Shown here piece after piece: positions 1-5,111 of a DNA stretch of 26,266 nucleotides. Numbering within the stretch: the stretch's first letter is position 1; each line of letters opens with the position of its first letter. Under the pieces are notes generated by a model. That model did not search any database. It worked only from the letters and a program-made list of their open reading frames with translations, and was not told the origin of the DNA. The DNA lies in IMG/VR virus record IMGVR_UViG_3300037961_001960, positions 1 to 26,266 of that record, one strand, 5' to 3'. The stretch is from a virus. Made by a program: the position numbers and the translations under genes.

Positions 1-38
1 CGAAAGCGTCCAATGCTATCGGCATTGCTGATGAGACC
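1..38 (+). ncRNA. Type II hammerhead ribozyme-like element, copy 1 (cut by window edge)
   Basis: The hammerhead core is present in permuted (type II) order: CGAAA at 1-5, cleavage triplet GTC at 8-10, helix I CAATGC (11-16) paired with GCATTG (22-27) around loop TATCG, CTGATGA at 28-34, then GACC at 35-38 for the 3' strand of an open helix II. The 5' strand of helix II lies left of the window except for C1. Helix III is almost absent: only A5 and T9 could pair, around GCG, whereas copies 2 and 3 have six pairs. This copy may therefore be weak or inactive, or may work with a partner strand. Predicted cleavage falls after C10, 68 nt before the ATG at 79. Confidence 0.72.
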
Positions 39-78
39 ATCAGTATCCATAAAACCAATACAAAAGAAAGTAATACAT
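39..78 (+). promoter_or_regulatory. Conserved post-ribozyme leader, copy 1
   Basis: Untranslated leader between the hammerhead core and the ATG at 79. It holds AAAACCAATA at 51-60 and TAATACATATG at the start codon. Both elements recur, with small changes, in the leaders at 434-467 and 802-843. There is no strong Shine-Dalgarno; only a purine run AAAAGAAAG sits about 10 nt upstream. The repetition suggests a shared translation or RNA-stability signal, but its function is unknown. Confidence 0.5.
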
Positions 79-381
79 ATGAAAAACAAAAGCGATAACA
101 ACACATGGGCAGTAATCACTCGCAAGAGCATATTCGTAGATGCACCATCCGAAACCTACTACTTCAAGAAACTGGATGAAGCAAAGCAGTTCCTAGATCG
201 CATACTCAGATTGCCACTGGACAATGAGCAAGCCCAGCTGGTCAAGGTCATGGAGTGGCATGAACAGGAGGAAAACTGCACTGACTACCACACTGCTATC
301 GGACATACCTACGATCAGAGTGATGATGAGGTCGATGAGTTTTATGCCGATGGCATCAAGAAACTCTGGAATCAATGTTAA
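79..381 (+). CDS. Small hypothetical phage protein (100 aa)
   Basis: I do not recognise this protein. It starts MKNKSDNNTWAVITRKS and is rich in acidic residues in its second half (EQEEN, SDDEVDEFYADG). No membrane segment or signal peptide is visible. The start at 79 is preferred over an in-frame ATG at 13 because positions 1-38 are the ribozyme-like element and because the ATACATATG context recurs at neighbouring starts. The gene lies between two hammerhead-like elements, and its stop codon is one base before helix II of copy 2, so it would be released as a single-gene message if both ribozymes cut. Confidence 0.72.
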   Translation: MKNKSDNNTWAVITRKSIFVDAPSETYYFKKLDEAKQFLDRILRLPLDNEQAQLVKVMEWHEQEENCTDYHTAIGHTYDQSDDEVDEFYADGIKKLWNQC

Positions 382-382
382 A

Positions 383-433
383 GGTCGAAACACCCACTGG
401 GTGTCTGGCAGTTACTCTGTCACTGATGAGACC
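383..433 (+). ncRNA. Type II hammerhead ribozyme, copy 2
   Basis: All conserved hammerhead parts are in type II order. Open helix II: GGTC (383-386) pairs with GACC (430-433). GAA is at 387-389. Helix III: ACACCC (390-395) pairs with GGGTGT (399-404) around loop ACT. The cleavage triplet GTC ends at C405. Helix I: TGGCA (406-410) pairs with TGTCA (418-422), including one G-U pair, around a 7-nt loop. CTGATGA is at 423-429. The element begins one base after the stop codon of the upstream gene. Cleavage after C405 would leave that message with a 24-nt 3' tail ending in helix III, and the next message with a 62-nt leader that starts in helix I. Catalysis has not been tested. Confidence 0.9.
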
Positions 434-467
434 ATCAGTATCAATAAAACCAATACATATAAATATC
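434..467 (+). promoter_or_regulatory. Conserved post-ribozyme leader, copy 2
   Basis: Leader between hammerhead copy 2 and the ATG at 468. It shares ATCAGTATC and AAAACCAATA (446-455) with the leader of copy 1, followed by CATATAAAT. It has no clear Shine-Dalgarno, so the conserved motif itself may matter for translation or stability. Confidence 0.5.
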
Positions 468-746
468 ATGACAATTGAATATATAACATTCGGAGTAATC
501 GATAACCTAGTAATGATCATCGGAGCCATGACTGGCTACGAGGTTGAACGCTATCTGCCCAAAACACTACAGAAAGGTCTGGGTGCAGTGGTGGGTGCTG
601 GTCTGGGTAATGCATCCAGCGACTGGCTGGGTGGATTCGTAGCTGGCAACCTAGGCATGGCTAATGGCACTGCACTGGGATGCATCATTGGTCTGGGATT
701 CATCCCAGCTATCCTACTGATTAAGAATCTCCGCAAAGACAAGTAA
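468..746 (+). CDS. Small glycine-rich membrane protein (92 aa), unknown function
   Basis: Starts MTIEYITFGVIDNLVMIIGA, with a hydrophobic N-terminal stretch. A long glycine/alanine-rich hydrophobic region (about residues 40-85) contains small-residue repeats such as GAVVGAGLG, GGFVAGNLG and GCIIGLGFIPAILLI. It ends in the basic tail KNLRKDK. This looks like two or three membrane segments with glycine-zipper packing and a positive inside end. I cannot assign a function; a holin-like or membrane-remodelling role is only a guess. The start at 468 is chosen over an in-frame ATG at 375 because 383-433 is a ribozyme. Its stop codon TAA (744-746) directly abuts ribozyme copy 3. Confidence 0.75.
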   Translation: MTIEYITFGVIDNLVMIIGAMTGYEVERYLPKTLQKGLGAVVGAGLGNASSDWLGGFVAGNLGMANGTALGCIIGLGFIPAILLIKNLRKDK

Positions 747-801
747 GTCGAAACACCCACTGGGTGTCTGGCATGGTTGGCTACCATGTCACTGACGAGA
801 C
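747..801 (+). ncRNA. Type II hammerhead ribozyme, copy 3
   Basis: Same plan as copy 2. Short open helix II: GTC (747-749) with GAC (799-801). GAA is at 750-752. Helix III: ACACCC (753-758) with GGGTGT (762-767) around ACT, identical to copy 2. The cleavage triplet GTC ends at C768. Helix I is extended to nine pairs: TGGCATGGT (769-777) with ACCATGTCA (783-791) around loop TGGCT. The catalytic segment reads CTGACGA (792-798); the varying base is core position 7, which is not conserved in hammerheads. The first ribozyme base follows the TAA stop with no gap. Helix I has grown while keeping its base pairs, which is good evidence for selection on RNA structure. Confidence 0.9.
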
Positions 802-843
802 AAGCCGTATTAACAAAACCAATACAAAGTAATACATATAAAA
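802..843 (+). promoter_or_regulatory. Conserved post-ribozyme leader, copy 3
   Basis: Leader between ribozyme copy 3 and the ATG at 844. It contains AAAACCAATA at 815-824, then TAATACATATAAAA up to the start codon, very like the leader of copy 1. After cleavage at 768/769 the ATPase message would have a 75-nt leader starting with the nine-pair helix I. Confidence 0.5.
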
Positions 844-2271
844 ATGAAAAACGATAATGATTACCTAAAGGAATTCCTCCGCAAGTATACCAATGAAGAA
901 TTGGAGCTAGCTGGAGTTCCCAAGACAAAGCACGATACTCGTGCAAAGAATCCCAGTGTGAGAGATGCAATCAATCATGCTGAATACGATGATCTAGCAA
1001 AGTGGGTGGAAACCCTAAAGCATGATCCACTCGGAATCATCAACGCTGGTCGCAAGGCAGATAAAAAGCCTACGCTGATACGCAAGTCAGCTGGGACATC
1101 ACCATCACCAGCACCATCACCAGCACCAGCTACACCAGCACCAGCTGGTATGACATCACTCACTCCAGATCAGATGAATGCCATTGGTGTTTTGCTGGGT
1201 GGCAACTCAGTCGATCCAGCCAAAGTCAGAGAGATAATGGATGAGGTCATCGCTGAAGATGTGAAGCCATGTATTGATGATCTCAATACAAAGGTTGATC
1301 GTCTTGAGCCACTGGTCGAAACACTGGAGAGTGTTGCCAATGCAATGAAGGGTGGAGCTAGCAAGCGTATGCCGATTGCTACATCCATCGCTAGTGGCAC
1401 GACTCCCATCTTGGATGTCATCGCTCCATACTACACAGCTGGAGAGGAATGTCCGACTAAGCTATGCGTCTCTGCTCCACCATCCTATGGTAAGAGTTAC
1501 AGTGTCGGCATACTTGGTCGCAGTTACGATGCATTCATCACACATGGATGCAATGGTGACATGGATGAGTGGTCGATGCTACTTGGTGGATGCCAGCCAA
1601 AGAAAGAGGGTGGCTTCATCATAGTGGATGGCAAACTCACTGAAGCTGTCCGCAGTGCAAGTGATGGTAAGGATACACTGCTATTCTTAGATGAGGTCTT
1701 CCGCATGTCTAACACCACAATGGAAGCCATGCTTGCATTCCTAGCACCACAACCAGATGCCAATGGAGACTTGGTATACCAGCTGACCACCAAGCAGAAT
1801 GATGGTGGCGTGCTGGAAGTGCTGACATGCAAGGCAGACAAGTTGCACATTGTATGTGCGACCAATCTGTCTGAGGTCGATCCACCAGAGGCATTCATGG
1901 ATCGCTTCCTATTCAAGCATGTTCGCTACAACCAAAAGGATATCGAGAATATATCCAGAGGTGTTGCCAACCATCATGGTATCGATAATGTCGATACACT
2001 GGCAGTCGGATTCGCAACAGTCATGGGCAAGTCTCGCGAGAAGTTTGCTCAAGGTCAGATTAAGAAGCCATTGAGTATTCGTGATCTGTCTCGAGGATGC
2101 ACTCACAGCAAGGATGCTACATGCGAGAGCGTTGCTAGCTGGATAGCTGATGAGGGTCTCGACGGAATGCTCATGTGGAATGGGGATTCTGGGGATATCA
2201 TCAAAGACAGCGAGGTCGGTGTGAATCAGCTCCGAAAGGAACTGAAGGATAGATGCAGTGATCGTCCATAA
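844..2271 (+). CDS. MoxR/CobS-like AAA+ ATPase (475 aa)
   Basis: Probable ATP-driven remodelling or chelatase-type motor. An N-terminal domain (about residues 1-80) is joined by a Pro/Ala/Ser linker (about 85-102, repeats of SPAP) to a short charged segment and then the AAA+ module. Walker A is APPSYGKS (211-218), Walker B is LLFLDE with D283-E284, sensor-1 N341 lies in CATN, and an arginine-finger-like DRF is near 354-356. MoxR and CobS ATPases typically act with a VWA-domain partner, and that partner is the next gene, 18 bp downstream behind the ribosome site AGAAAGGAT. Cyanophages are known to carry CobS-like genes. Whether this pair is a metal chelatase or a chaperone system for host or virion proteins cannot be read from sequence. 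Confidence 0.85.
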   Translation: MKNDNDYLKEFLRKYTNEELELAGVPKTKHDTRAKNPSVRDAINHAEYDDLAKWVETLKHDPLGIINAGRKADKKPTLIRKSAGTSPSPAPSPAPATPAPAGMTSLTPDQMNAIGVLLGGNSVDPAKVREIMDEVIAEDVKPCIDDLNTKVDRLEPLVETLESVANAMKGGASKRMPIATSIASGTTPILDVIAPYYTAGEECPTKLCVSAPPSYGKSYSVGILGRSYDAFITHGCNGDMDEWSMLLGGCQPKKEGGFIIVDGKLTEAVRSASDGKDTLLFLDEVFRMSNTTMEAMLAFLAPQPDANGDLVYQLTTKQNDGGVLEVLTCKADKLHIVCATNLSEVDPPEAFMDRFLFKHVRYNQKDIENISRGVANHHGIDNVDTLAVGFATVMGKSREKFAQGQIKKPLSIRDLSRGCTHSKDATCESVASWIADEGLDGMLMWNGDSGDIIKDSEVGVNQLRKELKDRCSDRP

Positions 2272-2289
2272 TAACAGAAAGGATATTGT

Positions 2290-3825
2290 ATGAGAAAATT
2301 CGATACAGCTGTTATAGCAAAAAAGGCATTCAGTAATGCGTGCCGTAAAATCGTTGGCAGACAGAAGGGTGGCGTGATCACTCGTATGTGTGCCGACTTG
2401 AATGAAGATTGCCAGCCAGTGATCGATCCCAGAGTGCCAACCGCAAACTGGCACTGGGATGGCAAACGACATGTGATCAAATGCGGAACATCACTGGATC
2501 AGATAGCAAACGCCAGCACAGTTGCCAGCGATGCCAAGTTGAAGCGATTCACTGAAGCAGTGATTCGACATGAGACTGAGCATGGTCGGCTTACTGATCG
2601 CTCGGACGATGTGCCCAATGCATGTCAGAGTCATGACATCCCATTTAGATTGTGGAATCTATTTGAGGATGTTCGCATCGAATACGCCAGTGCCACTCGC
2701 AAGGGTGGCGATGGTGCATTCCGCTGGATCAACTTCCAAGATGTGGAAGACAGCTACACATCAGCTGTAAACCTACTGCTGGCGTGCAAGCTCAATGAAG
2801 CTGGAATAAAGAAGTCACCAAGCTCCGCTGTGCCGAAGTGGATGGGTGCTGAGCATGTCATGTATAAAGGCAAGTTGAAGAAAACGCGATTGGTCGTGTT
2901 AGACTTCTATCGTCGTGCATGTGCATGTGTATCCAGTATGTCACTACTTCCAGTCATACTGGAGTGGATCGACATCTTCGGCAAAGAAGCTCCAGCTGGT
3001 GGCGATGCCAGCATCAATGGTGTCACTGATCCCAATGATAAAGATACACTGATTCAAAGTGATCGCAAAGATAACAAGACTGAGAAGTTAGACGATGACC
3101 AGCATCCAGAAAACAAGCCAGCTGGAAGGTGGTCATCTCGACCCAATAAGAAAATGAATCATGACCAGATATCCAGAATTGCGAGAGCAATGGGTAGAGT
3201 CATGACCAATGCCAAGGTCGTTAAGAATCGTCTCAACTGCAATGGTCACAAGCTGAATGCCAACCAAGCCATGCAAGGCAGTGAGAAGGTCTTCCAGACC
3301 AGAGGCAGACAACGAGGCAAGCGATCACTCACTCTCATCGTAGATATGAGTGGATCGATGGATTACACCTATACACTGCATGGTGGTAAGGAGTTCATCT
3401 TGGCGTTCCGCAAGCTAGCCAAGCAAGGCAAGATCGATCTGAACATACTGCTCACCCAGAATTGGGGTGGCAGTAAATCTGCATCGTATCGTATCAAATC
3501 CACTGATACAGATGAGTGGATTAACTCACTGAGACCAGATGGACATGGCGAGCGTATCATGCACTGCATGAAGCGTTTCGATAGACTGATCAAGTCAAGC
3601 ACGACCTCGGTGATATTCACTGATGCCGATCTGACTGACAGCGACATCGATATCACAATGTATCGCCAGAAAGGATACAACACCATCGGTGCATACATCG
3701 AAGCTCACGAAGAAAATCTTGAGGTTTCTCGTCGAGAGATGAATGAACACTTCGCCAGAAGTGCTATCGCCACTGAGCCAGTTGAGCTGGCACAGCGTCT
3801 AATGAGGGAAATACTAAAGGATTAA
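2290..3825 (+). CDS. Metallopeptidase-like/VWA domain protein, CobT-like partner (511 aa)
   Basis: The C-terminal half is a von Willebrand A domain. Its MIDAS motif DMSGSM begins at D352, followed by a hydroxyl-rich strand and a late acidic segment (IFTDADLTDSD). The N-terminal half has HETEH at 94-98 and, after a gap, LFEDVRIEY with E126, resembling the zinc site of DUF2201/CobT-like VWA proteins. The central part (about 255-290) is charged and probably flexible. MoxR-type ATPases and VWA proteins form two-component complexes in which MIDAS-bound Mg2+ touches the ATPase, so this gene should work with the 844-2271 product. Whether the HETEH site cuts peptides or only binds metal is open. Confidence 0.82.
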   Translation: MRKFDTAVIAKKAFSNACRKIVGRQKGGVITRMCADLNEDCQPVIDPRVPTANWHWDGKRHVIKCGTSLDQIANASTVASDAKLKRFTEAVIRHETEHGRLTDRSDDVPNACQSHDIPFRLWNLFEDVRIEYASATRKGGDGAFRWINFQDVEDSYTSAVNLLLACKLNEAGIKKSPSSAVPKWMGAEHVMYKGKLKKTRLVVLDFYRRACACVSSMSLLPVILEWIDIFGKEAPAGGDASINGVTDPNDKDTLIQSDRKDNKTEKLDDDQHPENKPAGRWSSRPNKKMNHDQISRIARAMGRVMTNAKVVKNRLNCNGHKLNANQAMQGSEKVFQTRGRQRGKRSLTLIVDMSGSMDYTYTLHGGKEFILAFRKLAKQGKIDLNILLTQNWGGSKSASYRIKSTDTDEWINSLRPDGHGERIMHCMKRFDRLIKSSTTSVIFTDADLTDSDIDITMYRQKGYNTIGAYIEAHEENLEVSRREMNEHFARSAIATEPVELAQRLMREILKD

Positions 3826-4849: not shown

Positions 4850-4882
4850 AAGCTCACACTCTTCGGGGTGTGGGCTTTTTTT
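4850..4882 (+). terminator. Strong rho-independent terminator
   Basis: Twelve-pair stem (4850-4861 with 4066-style complement at 4866-4877, two G-U pairs) closed by a TTCG tetraloop, followed by seven T residues (4876-4882). It ends the left operon that holds the AAA+/VWA and lysin genes. Confidence 0.93.
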
Positions 4883-4914: not shown

Positions 4915-4937
4915 ACTATGGACACACTCTGACCCTA
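4915..4937 (+). repeat. 23-bp direct repeat, copy A
   Basis: Perfect copy of 4948-4970 with a start-to-start spacing of 33 bp, about three helical turns. It begins ACTATGGACACAC and ends CTGACCCTA. It lies in the gene-free stretch between the terminator and the tmRNA-like RNA, where a repressor or activator site would be expected. No good -35/-10 pair is visible inside it. Confidence 0.85.
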
Positions 4938-4947
4938 GCCCCTCGCT

Positions 4948-4970
4948 ACTATGGACACACTCTGACCCTA
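4948..4970 (+). repeat. 23-bp direct repeat, copy B
   Basis: Identical to 4915-4937. It is followed by a T-run (about 4973-4979) and, 18 bp downstream, by TTGACA (4989-4994). That hexamer looks like a -35 box, but the best -10 candidate (TATGCG, 5017-5022) is 22 bp away, too far for a standard sigma70 promoter. An operator pair is the likeliest reading. Confidence 0.85.
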
Positions 4971-5025
4971 AGTTTTTTTGGAAAACCCTTGACACCCATT
5001 CGCAGTTTTGCAAACCTATGCGATT

Positions 5026-5090
5026 GGGGATGCATGGTATCGATCTGATTTCGGTCAGAGACGGAGGTTCGATTCCTCCCATCTCCACCA
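5026..5090 (+). ncRNA. 65-nt tmRNA/tRNA-Ala-like RNA without anticodon arm
   Basis: Folds as a tRNA-like domain. Acceptor stem GGGGATG (5026-5032) pairs with CATCTCC (5080-5086) over all seven positions, with a G-U wobble at the third pair (G3-U70), discriminator A and encoded CCA (5088-5090). The T arm is GGAGG (5063-5067) with CCTCC (5075-5079) around TTCGATT. Only 30 nt lie between these arms. They hold a stemless D-loop-like GGTATCGAT and one five-pair hairpin, TCTGA (5044-5048) with TCAGA (5055-5059). G3-U70 with A73 is the alanyl-tRNA synthetase identity signal shared by tRNA-Ala and tmRNA, and the acceptor differs from that of E. coli tmRNA at one base pair. No tag reading frame is present. 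Alternatives are a phage attachment site copied from host ssrA, or a processing signal. Confidence 0.6.
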
Positions 5091-5111
5091 AACCAATAAC
5101 CAAATATAAAA
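5090..5111 (+). promoter_or_regulatory. AAACCAATA leader after the tmRNA-like RNA
   Basis: Directly after the encoded CCA comes AAACCAATA (5090-5098) and then AAATATAAAAATG, closely matching the leaders that follow the hammerheads at 51-60, 446-455 and 815-824. If host RNase cleaves at the 3' end of the tRNA-like fold, the downstream message would begin with this leader. Confidence 0.45.

Follow-up and report, generated by a model that had tools for sequence, protein, structure and literature searches.

Perreault et al. (2011; PMC3088659) described clusters of hammerhead ribozymes, some of them type II, around single small genes of phages and already proposed that such clusters process a transcript into single-gene messages. 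In that paper three tandem sets are reported to cleave in vitro, one of them also when expressed in E. coli, and the type II consensus stresses a pseudoknot between loop I and the tail. The corresponding Rfam family (RF02276, Hammerhead_II) shares its permutation, core and cleavage triplet with the ribozymes considered below, one of which (HHR3) aligns with it end to end. Hammerheads are also at work in synthetic insulators of the RiboJ type, which are engineered from a plant satellite RNA: the ribozyme trims the 5' leader, and a hairpin downstream presents the ribosome-binding site. That hairpin is separate from the ribozyme, whereas the one described here re-employs the catalytic core.

The DNA under consideration is a window of 26,266 bp, bases 1-26266 of a 37,001-bp virus record (the contig) that comes from a marine phage. 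An earlier note on it took the tandem set of hammerheads at its start for a distinct new system, a claim that is not supported: arrays and processing are both found in Perreault et al. (PMC3088659), whose clusters likewise have several hammerheads around single small genes. What seems to be undescribed is a hairpin that covaries and refolds the catalytic core. As far as the text of PMC3088659 is accessible, this RUCAG hairpin, the occurrence of mixed topologies next to one gene and arrays of 8-12 copies, all of them found here, go unmentioned; nor is the covarying hairpin mentioned in the open-licence literature searched (supplements excluded), a scope that does not establish priority.

The hammerheads and their operon

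HHR2 (383-433, + strand; predicted cleavage at 405/406) begins 1 nt past the stop codon of gene 1 and is a complete type II hammerhead, with helix II GGUC/GACC, GAAA, a 6-bp helix III, the GUC triplet, a 6-bp helix I and CUGAUGA. HHR3 (747-801, +; predicted cleavage at 768/769), likewise complete, adjoins the stop codon of gene 2 (744-746) and has helix II GUC/GAC, a 6-bp helix III, a 9-bp helix I and CUGACGA. Both satisfy a strict type II descriptor, for which ~0.02 matches per window are expected by chance; a chance origin of the motifs was ruled out with shuffles. Of HHR1 only the 3' part (1-38, +) lies in the window, as the overlap of the contig ends and a covariance model (R1, below) indicate. 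Window 1-62 is identical to contig 36879-36940, and the complete ribozyme, at contig 36869-36916 (GGTCGAAACGCGAAAGCGTCCAATGCTATCGGCATTGCTGATGAGACC), has helix III ACGC-GAAA-GCGU and a helix I of 6 pairs. The GAAA at window 2-5 is therefore the tetraloop of helix III; the core GAAA lies beyond the window, together with the 5' strand of helix II at the opposite end of the contig. What the window does hold is the 3' half of helix III, C17 at position 10 with the cleavage site at 10/11, helix I (11-27), the core CTGATGA (28-34) and the 3' strand GACC of helix II (35-38).

The earlier note had counted three full type II hammerheads, and was right about HHR2 and HHR3; it misparsed the first element, assigning the GAAA at 2-5 to the core and 5 pairs to helix I. 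Once the other end of the contig is included, all three copies possess the CUGANGA core, GAAA and an NUH cleavage triplet, and all three have the type II topology, with helices I and III closed and helix II open; self-cleavage 3' of C17 is predicted for each of them. The proposed distance of 62-75 nt from cleavage site to ATG is borne out (cuts at 10/11, 405/406 and 768/769; ATGs at 79, 468 and 844). That every element directly follows a stop codon or the edge of the window is true to the extent that HHR2 and HHR3 follow stop codons; HHR1 is preceded by a ~300-nt leader without a conserved gene. With the first element reparsed, the type II topology, the array and the idea of processing retain the support of covariation, of placement between stop and start codons, here as in many phage contigs, and of an apparently single transcription unit.

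R1 was built from 16 copies, HHR1-3 among them. It scores HHR2 at 72.9, full HHR1 at 64.6, HHR3 at 51.4 and truncated HHR1 at 27.5 bits, values that are high by construction because all three copies belong to the model's source set. The informative part of the search is instead the absence of extra copies: with filters off, R1 finds no further hammerhead in the 37,001-bp contig. In the 16-copy alignment 97.6% of the cells are paired, and 12 of the 16 pairs show two-sided changes. Covariation scores 0.682; controls with slid partners do not exceed 0.12. At the HHR1 position of the relative L006 the strands of helix II are swapped, GGUC/GACC having become GACC/GGUC. Comparison with the Rfam type II model, the check that had been suggested, proved weak, for RF02276 reports HHR3 alone, at 29.3 bits and below its cut-off of 37, and gives no reported match to HHR1 or HHR2; an Rfam search of the whole window with E up to 1 returns a tmRNA match only, HHR3 having emerged from a short slice. 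The model overlooks most ribozymes of this sort: its cut-off is passed by 2 of at least 11 copies in the array contig L132 and by none in several other hammerhead-bearing contigs.

Between a promoter-like and a terminator-like site the order is a ~300-nt leader, HHR1, gene 1, HHR2, gene 2, HHR3, gene 3 and further genes. Gene 1 (79-381, +; 100 aa) has a weak match to phrog_1254, of unknown function; gene 2 (468-746, +; 92 aa) is TMEM65-like (PF10507); gene 3 (844-2271, +) encodes a MoxR/CobS-like AAA ATPase by weak profile matches only, and is preceded by a hammerhead in several relatives as well. Window 844-3825 holds a gene pair with weak matches to a MoxR/CobS-like ATPase and a CoxE-type VWA protein, all of the Pfam matches being below cut-off. 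The promoter-like site, TTCACA-17-TATAAT at contig 36554-36582, scores 11/12, and L006 preserves its -10 region, although such sites are no commoner in a promoter scan than in shuffles. The terminator-like element, a 12-bp hairpin with a T run (4850-4877, +), lies after the final gene of the set and closes the operon. Separation does not reach every gene, since a single message would serve gene 3 and those after it. An ORF running through HHR1 was dropped, being out of frame with gene 1.

The leader upstream of HHR1 (contig ~36590-36870) is conserved, apparently non-coding and ~85% identical in L006. That of gene 2 (439-467, +) is A-rich, unstructured by folding, and contains AAAACCAATACA, which the HHR1 and HHR3 leaders have in common with it. 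Leaders at 39-78, 439-467, 803-843 and 5091-5111 share AAACCAATA and an A-rich stretch, with no obvious Shine-Dalgarno sequence before the ATG. At the end of the contig (36916-37001; L004 16916-17001) the HHR1 leader runs straight into the beginning of gene 2, so that gene 1 and HHR2 are left out; this junction is possibly a deletion variant that arose through the repeated leader, or else an assembly artefact or branch.

The last of these leaders, at 5091-5111, belongs to a second operon and is preceded by a 65-nt tRNA-like element (5026-5090, +), just 3' of a TTGACA motif, that scores as a tmRNA (52.7 bits, E 2.7e-18) with the entire message part missing; its CCA is encoded. In relatives (L013 9952-10017; L165) it has a UUCG-capped stem with two-sided changes. 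ARAGORN calls no tRNA in it, and a search of 84,980 bacterial and archaeal genomes for a 30-nt piece of the element gives no exact match. Upstream, at 4915-4975, CTATGGACACACTCTGACCCTA is present twice; motifs related to it (CTATGGAC) recur in non-coding DNA close to the end of the contig.

A hairpin that excludes the catalytic fold

The core of HHR1 and HHR2, together with the bases that follow it, reads CUGAUGAGACCAUCAG and is predicted to form a hairpin, CTGATG-AGAC-CATCAG (28-43 and 423-438, respectively, both +; from folding, and from covariation at N7 in relatives), in which the RUCAG located 3' of helix II is complementary to the core CUGAY. HHR3 has no such hairpin. This hairpin and the catalytic fold are mutually exclusive, and it is therefore probably either a lock that would close after cleavage or a brake on cleavage. 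It is the predicted minimum-energy fold of uncut HHR1 and HHR2, lying 2.4 kcal/mol below the hammerhead (tertiary terms excluded), and so could instead inhibit cleavage: as a brake or timer it would form on the nascent RNA once AUCAG has emerged, compete with helix II and keep some of the transcripts from being cut, so that the array would set the proportion of cut to uncut messages. We regard this main rival as unlikely though serious. Synthesis of helices III, I and II is finished by the time the AUCAG is made, which would give cleavage a short head start; the 3' products predicted for HHR1 and HHR2 consist of two neighbouring hairpins and then an open leader; and these two considerations favour a lock that acts after cleavage. 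Relatives retain hairpins of other sequence that sequester the core or helix II, such as GAGGU/ACCUC at HHR1 of L006, and these fit a lock or a brake alike. The earlier note had anticipated a 5' hairpin on the cleavage products; what it lacked is that in HHR1 and HHR2 this structure would be, more specifically, the refolded catalytic core.

Among the matches listed from a first scan of viral contigs and from relatives, 37 of 198 type II copies (19%) have the complementary base and TCAG soon after helix II, in a sample that is less biased than the later scans for a purine followed by TCAG. Two such scans, allowing either purine before TCAG, were added and gave 247 structured copies, of which 150, from 131 loci, remain after removal of copies that are 75% or more alike. 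Here core base 7 and the R opposite it combine as U7:A 79 times, as U7:G 4 times and as C7:G 67 times, and C7:A does not occur (Fisher p = 2e-38, a figure that ignores residual relatedness among the copies). The relation is absent where the TCAG is missing. Since U:G, unlike C:A, can form a wobble pair in RNA, the asymmetry at base 7 points to pairing in RNA; and position 7 is the sole site of the 5' arm that could covary, the other bases of the core being invariant. The collection contains no copy with a purine at 7 and the matching pyrimidine before TCAG. Genomes of 84,980 bacterial and archaeal species yield 21 pattern matches, among them 4 fully structured ribozymes in 3 contigs, all U7:A, compared with more than 200 viral loci that have copies of the hairpin type. 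Extending the hairpin to all type II copies was tried and is weakly supported: their tails fold better than shuffled tails but barely better than swapped ones (-3.68 versus -3.50, sd 0.08).

As for the pseudoknot of the published consensus, pairing of at least 4 bp between loop I and the tail is, across the class, in clear excess over swapped tails only in copies that lack the hairpin (16% versus 8%). HHR3 is one of these: its loop I GGCU (779-782, +) may form a pseudoknot with the AGCC tail 3' of helix II (803-806, +), in a region that aligns with RF02276. HHR2 has a possible pairing of this kind, UACU:AGUA, which is absent from relatives, and HHR1 has none. Divergent hammerhead-like copies in two relatives (L008 5506-5559, L011 5393-5446) carry an AAGCC tail of the HHR3 type and, at the base of helix II, a U-U mismatch that is kept in both.

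The hairpin might alternatively be a landing site for a protein or for the ribosome, its overlap with the core being incidental to catalysis. The conserved stem and AGNC loop, a location just upstream of the ribosome-binding region and a median of 28 nt from helix II to the ATG in hairpin copies would all suit such a site; set against them are the variation of the helix II strand within the loop and at the end of the stem (GACC, GTCC, GGCT, GACT) and the fact that no common binding protein has been identified, and we consider the proposal quite improbable. What the comparisons show directly is structure, covariation, placement and the fact that the hairpin is conserved. The prospects are about even, to judge from the sequences, that one widespread group of type II hammerheads in phages consists of self-locking processing sites, in which CUGAYG also pairs with YRUCAG, so that cleavage would lead to refolding, a destroyed ribozyme and a structured 5' end on the message of each gene.

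Arrays in other phages

The first scan gave at least 120 stretches of viral contigs and, because it required helix II GGUC/GACC, is biased towards that helix; together with relatives it provides at least 198 distinct complete type II copies at 129 or more loci. Among the matches listed, which come from 119 other loci, each of the 46 multi-copy loci has all of its copies on one strand, the median spacing of copies is 420 nt, and the gap between copies is filled by a sense ORF to a median of 87%, versus 38% for antisense. A larger set, chosen in part for the hairpin, has 107 multi-copy contigs, of which 104 keep every copy on one strand; arrays in it reach 12 copies. About 62% of copies have a stop codon no more than 6 nt upstream, against a background of 21%. 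Several hammerheads of one orientation flank single phage genes here and in the wider set.

Homologues of gene 2 occur in 29 contigs and in the cultured Pelagibacter phage HTVC109P (MH598805; L135), whose gene 2 homologue is the only relative brought up when the window and two large arrays were compared with phage records by BLAST. HTVC109P has predicted hammerheads of type II at 563-621, type I at 1105-1164 and type II at 2325-2378. As in the present phage they follow stop codons among the small genes with which the genome opens, but the copy beside gene 2, directly 3' of it, is of type I there and of type II here. The HTVC109P hammerheads are unannotated, the record having CDS features only, and the annotated start of gp03 (589) falls within the first of them. 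Type I copies also lie downstream of gene 2 homologues in L155, L160 and L162, type III copies upstream in L159 and L161, and a type II copy upstream in L136; the remaining homologues have no hammerhead within ~80 nt. The conjecture that the gene 2 cassette always bears a ribozyme was rejected accordingly. Different topologies next to one gene suggest repeated recruitment.

Such patchiness is what would be expected if the ribozymes were mobile or decaying passengers of small gene cassettes, with no selected role in processing. Phage C75C1, the nearest named relative found (terminase 72% identical), contains no hammerhead that the type II descriptor detects, which implies that the array is not essential across the wider lineage; most gene 2 homologues are without one; and the junction at the contig end, from a repeated leader, looks as though gene 1 had been lost or the assembly had branched. 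Passengers, however, would not be expected to have helices maintained by compensatory changes, to lie nearly always in the sense orientation between stop and start codons, or to recur in different topologies next to the same gene, and we hold this explanation to be improbable.

Proposed processing followed by refolding

The best explanation, and a probable one on the comparative evidence, is that three hammerheads process one transcript into separate messages and that the core then refolds in HHR1 and HHR2. Published arrays cleave and nothing in HHR1-3 speaks against activity, which makes processing the most likely role. The operon would be transcribed from the promoter-like site at contig 36554-36582 to the terminator-like site at window 4850-4877, and the nascent RNA cut after C10, C405 and C768, giving a leader RNA of ~300 nt (contig ~36590-36870, freed as a separate RNA by the HHR1 cut), one message each for gene 1 and gene 2, and a joint message that covers gene 3 and the genes downstream. 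The 3' end of each upstream product would be the compact hairpin of helix III, bearing a 2',3'-cyclic phosphate and, in the messages of genes 1 and 2, lying just past the stop codon; downstream products would start with the helix I hairpin, at or beside the first nucleotide past the cut. In the HHR1 and HHR2 products the freed CUGAUG would pair with CAUCAG to form a second hairpin beside the first, followed by the unstructured A-rich leader up to the ATG; HHR3, which lacks this second hairpin, may have the loop I-tail pseudoknot in its place. Refolding would abolish the catalytic core, render cleavage irreversible and leave a structured 5'-OH end. Cleavage in the cell, the function as a lock and any effect on mRNA stability are what we infer.

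Hammerhead cleavage is reversible, and tandem copies give circles in eukaryotic retrozymes; cleavage and ligation among neighbouring hammerheads might in the same way yield circular or spliced RNAs instead of linear messages. This is highly improbable for the present locus, where a core-destroying hairpin would oppose ligation. Perreault et al., moreover, report that spliced and circular products were sought and none detected (PMC3088659).

Refolding of the core into a second hairpin may aid the design of insulators. If phage type II hammerheads of this subclass are indeed self-locking, position 7 of the core, which has been thought free, is constrained by a second fold. The role of phage hammerheads has been under discussion since 2011; the many sense-oriented, gene-spacing arrays, and the differing topologies found by one gene, favour message processing over drift.
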